64,000 bases of DNA from Candidatus Nitrosocosmicus agrestis (lineage in GTDB: Archaea; Thermoproteota; Nitrososphaeria; Nitrososphaerales; Nitrososphaeraceae): the NCBI RefSeq assembly GCF_008389435.1, contig NZ_VUYS01000002.1:124001-188000 (forward strand). Reading direction: 5' to 3'. The first letter of the stretch is position 1, and every line of letters starts with the position of its first letter. The notes below the pieces were generated by a model, which saw only the letters and a list, made by a program, of their open reading frames with translations, ran no database searches and was not told the DNA's origin. Made by a program: the position numbers and the translations under genes. This document shows, one piece after another, positions 10,840 to 63,529 of this stretch.

Positions 10840-10953
10840 ATTGACCGTGGTTGGTAGTAGGGACAATGTTTTGACGAGAGATTGACCGTGGTTGGTAGTA
10901 GGGACAATGTTTTGACGAGAGATTGACCGTGGTTGGTAGTAGGGACAATGTTT
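10840..10953. repeat. 41-bp tandem repeat, about 2.8 copies
   Basis: A 41-base unit starting ATTGACCGTGGTTGG begins at 10840, 10881 and 10922; the first two copies are complete and identical, the third stops after about 32 bases. The repeats are directly joined, with no variable spacers, so this is not a CRISPR array. They lie in the 354-base gap (10701-11054) between two divergent genes. Apparent small ORFs here are just the repeat translated. Confidence 0.9.
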
Positions 10954-11054
10954 GGATAGTTTCAAGTTACCATATTGTCGGCAAATGAGCACTGATTATA
11001 TATGATCAAAGTTAGATTTAAGAAATATAGATTCGTCATTTACGTCATGTAAGT

Positions 11055-39410: not shown

Positions 39411-39522
39411 TAATGCTAAACATGATATTTTGATAAAATCGATATATATATTGATAATAGAATTCAGTCGTTATCCTCAAACCACCCTGTTTGGGTTTTT
39501 CCTTAAATGAATAAGAATCCAC

Positions 39523-39583
39523 CATTCAGCCATTCAGCCATTCAGCCATTCAGCCATTCAGCCATTCAGCCATTCAGCCATTA
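39523..39583. repeat. (CATTCAGC)n tandem repeat, about 7.5 copies
   Basis: An 8-base unit is repeated exactly about seven times, from 39523 to 39578 with a partial copy after. It lies between the YcaO gene and the divergent peptide gene, just upstream of the peptide's TATA box. Confidence 0.95.
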
Positions 39584-39599
39584 TTTCCTCAAAAAAAAG

Positions 39600-61446: not shown

Positions 61447-61717
61447 ATCTAGAATCAATTTATAAAGGATTACCGATTAAAAGGCGATAGAGATGAGACA
61501 TATCCTAAAAAGAATTTATGATTTCAGGATGTCAAAATTTCAACAGTTTTACATTAATTTCATTTCGAATAACTGAAATTATATAGAGGTTTCTATATGT
61601 AAAGTGAAGAACCTAATGAACGGGTTTTTGTAATCATATCTTACCCGTGAAAGGTATACAGTGTTCCAAAATTATTACAAATATTTTTAATCAAGTACAT
61701 GGTATAAAAGCTATAGA

Positions 61718-62392
61718 ATGAAGACTCTTCAGATAGCTACTTTTGGTGATGATGATCAAGATGGCATAGCCTTGGGAATAAGAAACTTTCCTATTCATCA
61801 ATTGATACTAATTTGTTATGCTAGCGATGAATCCAAAGCTGTAGATTATTCTAAGAAGATGGAAACAATCATCGGCATTGGTTCGGAAATTATTTTAGTT
61901 GAGAAGGAAAATGTTGTTAAAGACACTATCGAAAGAGTTAACGAGGTGTTATTAAAGAAAAGTATGGAATATCACCAGATCCTAATGAATGTAAGTTCAG
62001 GAGATAAGCTGATTAGTTGTGCAGCTCTCTCTTCCGCTTTTATTAATGGGATAAAGGCATTTGCAATGGATCATGATCACACTATTCCGCTCTTGCTACC
62101 AGTTCTTAAGTTTAGTTATTCTGAAATCATTTCCGATACCAAGATAAAAATCCTAAAGAGCATTGATAGCATAGGAGGAATGGTAAGTAGTCTTGAGGAG
62201 TTAGAGCAGATATCAGGTTACGGCAAACCACTCCTTAGTTATCATGTACAAGGTGGTAAAGAGAATAAAGGATTAGCAGACCTAGGTTTGGTAGAAGTTG
62301 ATAAAGGTGACCGAGGGAAAACTGTGATCAATATCACCACTTTGGGTAAATTGATGGTGACATCAAATTTAGTTAACTCTTCTCAGCATTAA
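61718..62392 (+). CDS. CARF-like domain protein with winged helix (Csa3-like)
   Basis: The 224-residue protein has a Rossmann-like N-terminal domain with the CARF-type motif ILMNVSSGDKLISCAALSSA (compare N-(S/T)-G-G-T-K of CARF proteins) and FINGIKAF, and a C-terminal winged helix (SLEELEQISGYGKPLLSYHVQ, VEVDKGDRGKTVINITTLGK). This layout is that of Csa3-like regulators, which bind cyclic oligonucleotides made in type III CRISPR immunity or other small ligands. No cas genes or repeats are seen nearby. A TATA-like ATTTTTAA lies about 32 bases before the ATG. Confidence 0.65.
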   Translation: MKTLQIATFGDDDQDGIALGIRNFPIHQLILICYASDESKAVDYSKKMETIIGIGSEIILVEKENVVKDTIERVNEVLLKKSMEYHQILMNVSSGDKLISCAALSSAFINGIKAFAMDHDHTIPLLLPVLKFSYSEIISDTKIKILKSIDSIGGMVSSLEELEQISGYGKPLLSYHVQGGKENKGLADLGLVEVDKGDRGKTVINITTLGKLMVTSNLVNSSQH

Positions 62393-62429: not shown

Positions 62430-62526
62430 GGGCTCGTAGCGCAGACCTTACAAAATAAGGGCGTAAAATGGATAGCGCGGACGCCTCCTAAGCGTCAGGT
62501 CAAGGGTTCAAATCCCTTCGGGCCCG
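62430..62526 (+). tRNA. tRNA-Arg(CCT) with D-loop intron
   Basis: Acceptor arms GGGCTCG and CGGGCCC, D-stem GCGC/GCGC, anticodon arm GACGC-CTCCTAA-GCGTC (anticodon CCT) and T-arm AAGGG/CCCTT pair well. The D-loop carries about 23 extra bases (about 62445-62467), including a CCTTA/TAAGG hairpin, and without them the D-loop has the normal AG...ATGGATA form with GG. This is a non-canonical archaeal tRNA intron. The mature tRNA would be about 74 bases, discriminator G at 62526. Confidence 0.88.
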
Positions 62527-63529
62527 CCTCAACTCATTTTTTAAAATTGATAGACACTAAATTATAATAATATTCATCGAATTTAGAAATTAATTATATT
62601 CGAAAAGTTTAATTCCCATATTTTATTTCAGCCAAAAAATCCATCGCATGAATACTAACGCATACTTTAAAACCGGATCAAGCCATTCAACAATAAAAAA
62701 GGATAGACAGATAACGTTATGAGAATTTAACAGAGAATATTGTAGCGATTTCTAAGTGATTAAACAATATTTAACTTTAGTAAAATTGTTATCTGATCAT
62801 ATGTTCCATAGTATGGATATGTATAGCAAGTTATTTTATTAACTCTTGAAAATATGATCGATATCTTAAATCGGCAAATCAAAGATCTAGATCCATAATT
62901 GAGAATTATAACATAGTTTCTAATGGGAATCAAATTAAACGATTCAATGTAATCGAATAATACCTGATTAAAAGAGTCTAACTATTTGTGTTTGTTTAAT
63001 TCTTACAATTGAATAGGATTAAGTTAGTAATATAGTTCAATTTCAAAGGTCAAGATCTAAAATTAATACAGTTTGATCAAAGTATAAAAGGTCATTATAA
63101 GTTAATTTGCAAAGATACGAGGGAAACTATATTCTTTAAATATTATTCTAACTATGGTAATATAAGAACGAACTTTATACCAGTCCCTTTAGCTTGGAGG
63201 GTGAAATTGAACCAGGGAGTTTCACTTTTTCCAAGCAATCCTACCTGAAACATCTTCGAATAACATATAGCTGAAATTTTCAACAGTAATTTGAGAAGAA
63301 TTTGCTTCTGATTCAAAGGCCTTATCCAGTAATATAGTAATCTGTAACCAAATTTTTTAGGGAGATGAGTAAATCAATATGGAAATGGCATTTTGAACAC
63401 AATCACGAGTAAATAATATTTTGTATTGACAATAGTATATAACGACGACTCACTTGTAAATTTCTTTTCACATCATCAAATACCAAGAAATGTCGGTGTA
63501 TTAATAATGCTAGAAGCACTAATTATAGT
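62527..63529. other. AT-rich gene-free stretch of about 1 kb
   Basis: No ORF of convincing character is present. The region is uniformly AT-rich. One hairpin stands out at 63193-63235: CTTGGA and GTGAAA pair with TTTCAC and TCCAAG, with a TTTAAATA box at about 63137 upstream, which could mark a small RNA. A degenerate ORF at 63426-63626 overlaps the methyltransferase start and is not called. Confidence 0.5.

Follow-up and report, generated by a model that had tools for sequence, protein, structure and literature searches.

The gene studied here encodes a regulator with a CARF sensor and a MarR-like winged helix, and its family probably governs a candidate thiol/metal regulon from which the branch in our organism seems to have become detached, as a solo regulator with probable targets elsewhere. 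The gene lies in a stretch of 64,000 nucleotides of Candidatus Nitrosocosmicus agrestis (contig NZ_VUYS01000002.1, positions 124,001 to 188,000), hereafter the window. Work on CARF domains has centred on type III CRISPR, whose alarm signal they receive. The regulator described here is conserved, has a candidate operator and candidate non-defence targets, and occurs in lineages in which no Cas10 was found; it would provide a system for seeking a non-CRISPR CARF ligand and bears on whether CARF signalling is wider than CRISPR. Moreover, the candidate regulon would give a regulatory handle on two protein families, DUF7482 and DUF3179.

The protein was assigned through profile searches and a structural model. 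The best three matches to the PADLOC CARF3 models had E-values from 9.5e-15 to 4.9e-13, the first of them spanning residues 6-214. Pfam HFX_2341_N (PF19810) matched at E 3.1e-5 with 24.9 bits, below the cut-off of 30, and the Csa3_N profile at E 0.026 with 15 bits, not reaching the curated cut-off of 27; NCBIfam held no model for the protein, and a direct sequence search of the PDB returned no relative. Among the relatives scanned for it, PF19810 lies above its cut-off in L136 (37.5) and L137 (30.3) and below it in L062 (29) and L138 (19.8). The AlphaFold2 model, built with 31 homologues (pLDDT 82.9, pTM 0.65; the other four models 65-74), consists of a Rossmann-like CARF domain and a winged helix and is weak at residues 120-139. 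Its top Foldseek match is Csa3 (2wte, E 1.1e-7; whole-chain TM 0.46, rmsd 14), and Csa3 with cA4 (6wxq) is also matched (E 6.3e-7; TM about 0.46, rmsd about 14); from these whole-chain values the two domains appear to be placed differently from those of Csa3. With VIA-align, residues 1-131 gave Z 15-16 and rmsd 2.5-2.8 over 122-129 residues against 6sce (which we take to be Can1), 7bdv (Can2), 8jh1 (Csm6) and 1xmx (VC1899), and the C-terminal part aligned with MarR (Table 1). At the level of profiles and predicted structure, a real Csa3-like CARF–winged-helix regulator is thereby confirmed, as the initial annotation had proposed. Within the predicted recognition helix, residues 170-176 are identical in all 31 rows of the family alignment and residues 169-176 (GKPLLSYH) in all rows of a deep alignment of six, the other five of which are 39-65% identical overall to the window protein.

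Table 1. Features of the CARF–winged-helix gene and its upstream region (positions in the window)
Feature	Position	Strand	Basis
CARF-wHTH regulator gene, 224 aa, ATG start, intact	61718..62392	+	ORF; PADLOC CARF3 9.5e-15; model and fold matches
CARF domain, residues 1-131	61718..62110	+	VIA-align ranges against 6sce, 1xmx, 7bdv, 8jh1
Winged-helix domain, residues 137-222	62126..62383	+	MarR-type wHTH match, Z 12.4, rmsd 1.4, 78 residues
Predicted recognition-helix segment G169-K-P-L-L-S-Y-H176	62222..62245	+	conservation; modelled as a helix from 170 to 178
T8-F9-G10 in the beta1-alpha1 loop, matched to Csa3 motif 1 (T-h-G)	61739..61747	+	correspondence by inspection
N91-V-S-S-G-D-K97 in the beta4-alpha4 loop, matched to the phosphate-binding loop Gly96-Met97-Arg98 of Csa3	61988..62008	+	correspondence by inspection
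Conserved core-promoter block of window-type copies, probable TATA/BRE	61677..61696	+	near-identical in 10 copies aligned
ATAGAATG conserved at the start codon; transcript probably leaderless and starting here	61713..61720	+	invariant in 10 copies aligned

The residues of the putative ligand pocket are conserved. The motif first read as N-S-S-G-D-K occurs as N-V-S-S-G-D-K, with N91, S93, G95 and K97 invariant in 31/31 rows and in 6/6 deep rows; in the beta1-alpha1 loop T8 is found in 31/31 rows and G10 in 30/31, both in all six deep rows. According to the available part of a structural report, Csa3a uses the T-h-G-F-N/D-E loop together with Gly96 and Arg98 to bind cA4 (PMC8699464). Because the counterparts of these loops, G95-D96-K97 and T8-F9-G10, are kept, a phosphate-bearing ligand in the CARF pocket is plausible, and the retained residues are consistent with cyclic-nucleotide sensing by the window protein. 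cA4 itself is disfavoured by the replacement of Arg by Lys and of Met by Asp, by the lack of the Phe and by the lack of any Cas10 match.

Matches to Cas1, Cas10 (palm domain) and RAMP are absent from the whole genome of the window's organism, which is 98.9% complete. A Pfam scan of 14 neighbouring ORFs detected no cas gene: three have no match and 11 have non-cas matches, mostly to housekeeping families, including prolyl-tRNA synthetase, an RsmB/F-type methyltransferase, a ribosome biogenesis protein, signal peptidase, a proteasome subunit and an O-methyltransferase. None of the direct repeats of the window is CRISPR-like. The earlier statement that neither cas genes nor CRISPR repeats lie nearby thus holds, and for Cas1, Cas10 and RAMP matches it extends to the genome as a whole. 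The window contains a 41-nt repeat in three head-to-tail copies (100%, 100% and 83%) at 10840-10962 and a tandem octamer repeat, CCATTCAG, at 39514-39590.

The same search was applied to 70 genomes of the organism's family. Cas10, sought with one palm-domain family that a divergent Cas10 could escape, was found in 0/70 and RAMP in 0/70; Cas1 matches occur in 11/70, the window's genome not among them, while the CARF-wHTH gene, fragments counted, is present in 30/70. A type III cyclic oligoadenylate is therefore unlikely to be the signal of the regulator. Among 14 control genomes, the Cas10 search was positive in five and the RAMP search in four; the Cas10 positives include E. coli, which to our knowledge has no type III system, so the Cas10 profile is not strict. 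The CARF protein itself had no match in the plasmids or in the viral contigs searched.

The genes that accompany the regulator in other genera point in a different direction. We fetched 40 CARF neighbourhoods and clustered their ORFs. In other genera the CARF homologues sit among genes for DUF7482 (PF24298, 5.7e-101), for a small Cys-Cys membrane protein with a G-C-C-G-S-W motif and for DUF3179 (PF11376, 1.4e-105), frequently joined by a DsbA-like thioredoxin and by a second membrane protein, whose cysteines are clustered. Next to one such cluster (L062) lie an HxlR regulator and MerA (TIGR02053, 548 bits against a cut-off of 454). In the genus of the window's organism a module-type gene occurs in three genomes, beside a solo copy in G007 and without one in G012 and G013; outside the genus, two CARF homologues (L076 and L082) have no partners in the stretch read. 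DUF3179 is present in 20/70 family genomes. Counting the 19 near-full-length matches (fragments in G011, G012, G014, contig C74 of G024, and G028 being left out), 18 have a CARF-wHTH gene at a distance of 0.8-4.7 kb, and the sole exception, in G040, has its CARF gene on another contig.

The association reaches far beyond the family. An alignment search of 398 genomes across the phylum found the CARF protein in 11, five of them outlying, and four of these five homologues again have the same partners. In another family of the order (L136) the CARF gene lies beside the second membrane protein and a divergent DsbA gene; in a distant family (L137, L138 and L139, of which L137 and L139 count as one genus and L139 has split frames) it adjoins DUF3179, the proteins of L137 and L138 being 45% and 39% identical to the window protein. 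The fifth homologue (L140) is longer, the match to it covers the CARF part alone, and its 5.5-kb contig holds no partner gene. Additional or split CARF-wHTH frames at L066 6217-6893 and L139 7660-8348 are perhaps decayed duplicates or sequencing frameshifts.

Cysteine motifs recur among the partner proteins. DUF3179 carries a CPLC motif in 16/16 rows and is fused with the Cys-Cys membrane protein into one polypeptide at two loci (L070 5220-6845, L074 6189-7847); a review, in the part available, lists it as a selenoprotein family with a UxxC/T motif (PMC9312934). A resemblance of the DsbA partner to the Rcas_1661 thioredoxin-like (seleno)lipoprotein family, at 136.9 bits, stays below the cut-off of 190. 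For DUF7482 a model with pLDDT 85.4 gave no Foldseek match at E <=0.001 and no VIA-align match above Z 3.0. Together the partner genes suggest an extracytoplasmic thiol/metal module and not a defence system. The earlier proposal of another purpose, perhaps a defence or stress route, is accordingly supported for the family by its thiol/metal neighbours and operator, but not in its defence part. Joint horizontal transfer could be an alternative source of the clustering. On two haloarchaeal plasmids (L156, L157) a 200-aa membrane protein bearing the motif C-C-G comes directly after DUF3179, which shows the DUF3179/Cys-Cys pairing in a setting where no neighbour is annotated as CARF.

The upstream regions of the module genes share a palindrome near CTTKAACNGTTMAAG. 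A Gibbs sampler run on the CARF upstream regions alone returned AACTTTAACGGTTGG, with 11 of 15 sites of the palindrome kind and the other four in coding starts. The matrix from these CARF sites exceeded the 95th percentile of other genes in front of 7/15 DUF7482 genes and 5/13 membrane/DUF3179 genes, compared with 12/224 others; for DsbA the count (1/8) is not significant by this threshold. When CTTKAACNGTTMAAG was used as a consensus and a site called at >=12 of 14 matches, sites were found in 30/53 module upstream regions versus 3/220 other genes in the same loci (Fisher 2.9e-22), a scan that is not independent because the consensus was set down after most module loci had been viewed. By class, sites precede 7/12 DUF7482, 7/14 CARF, 9/12 membrane and 2/6 DsbA genes and 5/9 genes of the distant loci, where they occur in L136 and L138 and none is clear in L137 or L139. 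Shuffled module upstream regions yielded a mean of 0.16 and a maximum of 2 of 53. The 53 regions derive from 69, less 3 operonic (66), reduced by similarity or length, and the controls from 237 genes, 224 after removal of overlapping or short ones and finally 220; some divergent genes share one palindrome site.

Eleven genes outside the loci that defined the consensus were also considered. All four testable module genes have a site: the membrane/DUF3179 pair of G040, whose CARF gene lies on another contig (score 12 at -51), the membrane and DsbA genes of G011, which share one region (score 13), and the DsbA gene of G012 (score 13), some exact matches in G011 and G012 having already been seen in a genome-wide palindrome scan. 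A CARF fragment at a contig edge (L148) has no upstream region. In two genomes (87 and 90% complete) with no match to CARF, the DUF7482 genes scored 10 and 8 (0/2 with a site), and isolated DUF7482 genes in CARF-bearing genomes scored 12, 9 and 8 (1/3). Within the module loci, three membrane genes that follow CARF directly lack a separate site. The palindrome usually begins 45-80 nt before the start codon and thus just upstream of the core promoter, a position that, from general knowledge of archaeal promoters, suggests activation. The identity of GKPLLSYH in the six deep homologues fits a conserved operator.

The operator does not accompany the solo copies. None of the 17 reaches a score of 12, the window copy attaining at best 10 of 14, and the window's genome has no excess of the palindrome (8 versus 23 and 8 versus 16 for the reversed control, each palindromic site being counted on both strands, hence four sites). 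One of these sites precedes a 307-aa protein with no Pfam match and was taken as chance. At its locus the window copy is not linked to DUF7482, DUF3179 or DsbA genes; its genome has no match to DUF3179, only a short DUF7482 without an operator site, and a DsbA–membrane-protein pair retained in trans. Control of this pair by the window copy was considered and rejected, the pair being present and the operator absent. Across nine genomes, 9 of the 10 genes of such retained pairs have no operator, and the tenth is in a genome without a CARF match. In G015, which has no CARF-wHTH match, an operator-like palindrome lies 50 nt before a DsbA gene (L169 2424-2438).

Window-type copies were found in 11 genomes of a single genus, where they stand alone near a proteasome beta gene. 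Homologues from named records (n=10, 82-97% identical) come from nine Candidatus Nitrosocosmicus MAGs and one labelled Nitrosopumilus, and six further solo copies, 80-90% identical, lie elsewhere in the same genus as the window-type copies. The proteasome gene is adjacent in 10 of the 11 loci; in L055 (genome G016), whose copy lacks the N-terminus in its open frame, an insertion intervenes. The two genes are in tandem in five loci (L045, L047, L051, L052, L054) and convergent in six (L046, L048, L049, L050, L053, L055) and thus do not form one transcription unit; in the window 350 bp separate them. Against nine orthologues the window protein has a mean identity of 96.6%, compared with 92.2% for the proteasome subunit and 47-90% for the other 13 neighbours with any orthologue. 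Its pN/pS of 0.036 is the lowest among eight genes compared, and with pS at 0.80 synonymous sites are near saturation, which argues for purifying selection on the window copy and against recent spread. A tree of 42 rows, to which the CARF gene of L070 was added by its coordinates, separates the module types from the solo copies, whose 17 rows group in a single clade (100/100). Since distant relatives already carry the cluster, solo life is most simply regarded as derived from cluster membership.

Alignment of the upstream DNA of 10 window-type copies (L055 left out) revealed a 20-base block that is near-identical throughout, in tandem and convergent orientations alike, while the rest of the intergenic and most of the flanking DNA hardly aligns. 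As an operator this block was rejected: in its own genome it has one further site with <=2 mismatches and, with <=3 mismatches, 9 matches versus 8 for the reversed pattern. Because there are hardly any further genomic sites beyond the level of the reversed pattern, we read it as a core promoter, and the conserved sequence at the start codon points to a probable leaderless start of the transcript. Downstream of the gene, at 62432-62527, lies a probable tRNA-Arg (anticodon CCT, read by eye) with a D-arm insertion that is likely a non-canonical intron; it is absent from the ARAGORN list, and Rfam found part of it (62460-62518).

We propose that the gene product is a ligand-responsive transcription factor of the wider HFX_2341/Csa3-like group, in which a CARF sensor is followed by a MarR-like winged helix. 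A protein of the subfamily, presumably as a dimer, would bind the palindrome upstream of the core promoter and would thereby control its own gene together with DUF7482, the Cys-Cys membrane protein and DUF3179, and often DsbA and the second membrane protein. The signal would be a small ligand in the CARF pocket, probably other than a type III cyclic oligoadenylate. The window copy would represent a solo branch that has kept the DNA-reading helix and the pocket, lacks the cluster and the operator, and has very strong purifying selection acting on it; its targets probably lie elsewhere in the genome. A possible, quite tentative extension is that in archaea lacking any type III CRISPR the CARF domain senses a small second messenger formed within the cell under thiol or heavy-metal stress, that a single palindromic operator switches on the envelope CxxC set, and that in the window's genus the sensor has been freed to become an almost invariant core regulator.

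Other explanations have to be weighed against this one. The regulator might instead be a broad global one like HFX_2341, with the thiol/metal cluster as one of many targets and the solo copies reflecting a general, perhaps housekeeping, role. The PF19810 similarity of the subfamily favours this reading, as do the strong constraint on a solo copy without a fixed partner and the available account of HFX_2341 as a global repressor in CRISPR-less species, its host having no type III cyclase homologue (PMC11434293). We hold it to be possible, if rather doubtful, since the operator is concentrated at module genes, with no genome-wide excess in the window's genome, and the association with the cluster holds over great distances. 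A redox switch acting through the protein's own cysteines, with the CARF fold only as a scaffold, would suit the thiol proteins among the linked genes. C33 is invariant in 31/31 rows, and C101 is found in 29/31 and is invariant in the deep alignment; however, C33 is replaced by His or Thr in L136, L137 and L138 and C101 by Ser in the close paralogues L056 and L060, and the nucleotide-type loop is just as strictly conserved, which makes such a switch unlikely.

Still less probable are two readings tied to other cellular systems. The protein could be a leftover CRISPR or defence regulator awaiting a cyclic oligoadenylate made by a type III system that escaped detection or was gained horizontally, as its top Foldseek match to Csa3, its retained pocket and the Cas1 matches of some relatives would allow. 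We regard this as very unlikely, because Cas10, sought with one palm-domain family, and RAMP gave no match in any of the family genomes searched while the gene is present in 30/70 of them and nearly frozen in the genus, and no cas gene stands among its annotated neighbours. That the window copy belongs to a proteasome-linked unit seems most improbable of all: the adjacency at nearly every window-type locus speaks for it, and the mixed orientations, the gap in the window and a conserved promoter block of its own in both orientations speak against it.

Compared with known systems, the subfamily is closest in kind to three groups of CARF regulators. The HFX_2341 family (PF19810, DUF6293) of haloarchaea is linked to it by PF19810, which scores above its cut-off in some members of the window subfamily and under it in others, the window protein among the latter. 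According to the available part of its account, HFX_2341 of Haloferax mediterranei has a Csa3a-like predicted structure, is a global regulator that represses cas genes when over-expressed and is conserved in species without CRISPR; that part contains neither a thiol/metal module nor a mention of DUF3179 (PMC11434293). Near two haloarchaeal plasmid DUF3179 loci that we inspected, no gene is annotated as CARF or HFX_2341-like. Csa3a and Csa3b of Sulfolobales share the CARF–wHTH architecture and have corresponding ligand loops, but the loop of Csa3a reads G-M-R where the window protein has G-D-K, motif 1 of the latter lacks the Phe, the window's genome has no cas genes or type III match, and the domains are oriented differently in the model. 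MM_0565 of Methanosarcina mazei is likewise a CARF-wHTH regulator; the available part of its description presents it as dimeric, associated with a type I-B CRISPR locus and with a target besides cas operons (PMC7465815).

The partner genes recall the DUF3179/DsbA-type (seleno)protein sets and the mer operons, through the CxxC proteins and the MerA beside the L062 cluster, and differ from them in being linked to a CARF protein. The literature searched, in part as partial texts and with the main 2020 CARF classification outside its scope, contains no report of a CARF-controlled thiol/metal cluster and does not name DUF7482. A CARF regulator acting as a global regulator outside CRISPR is already known from the haloarchaeal relative HFX_2341; what is new is the family's set of conserved partner genes together with the candidate operator.
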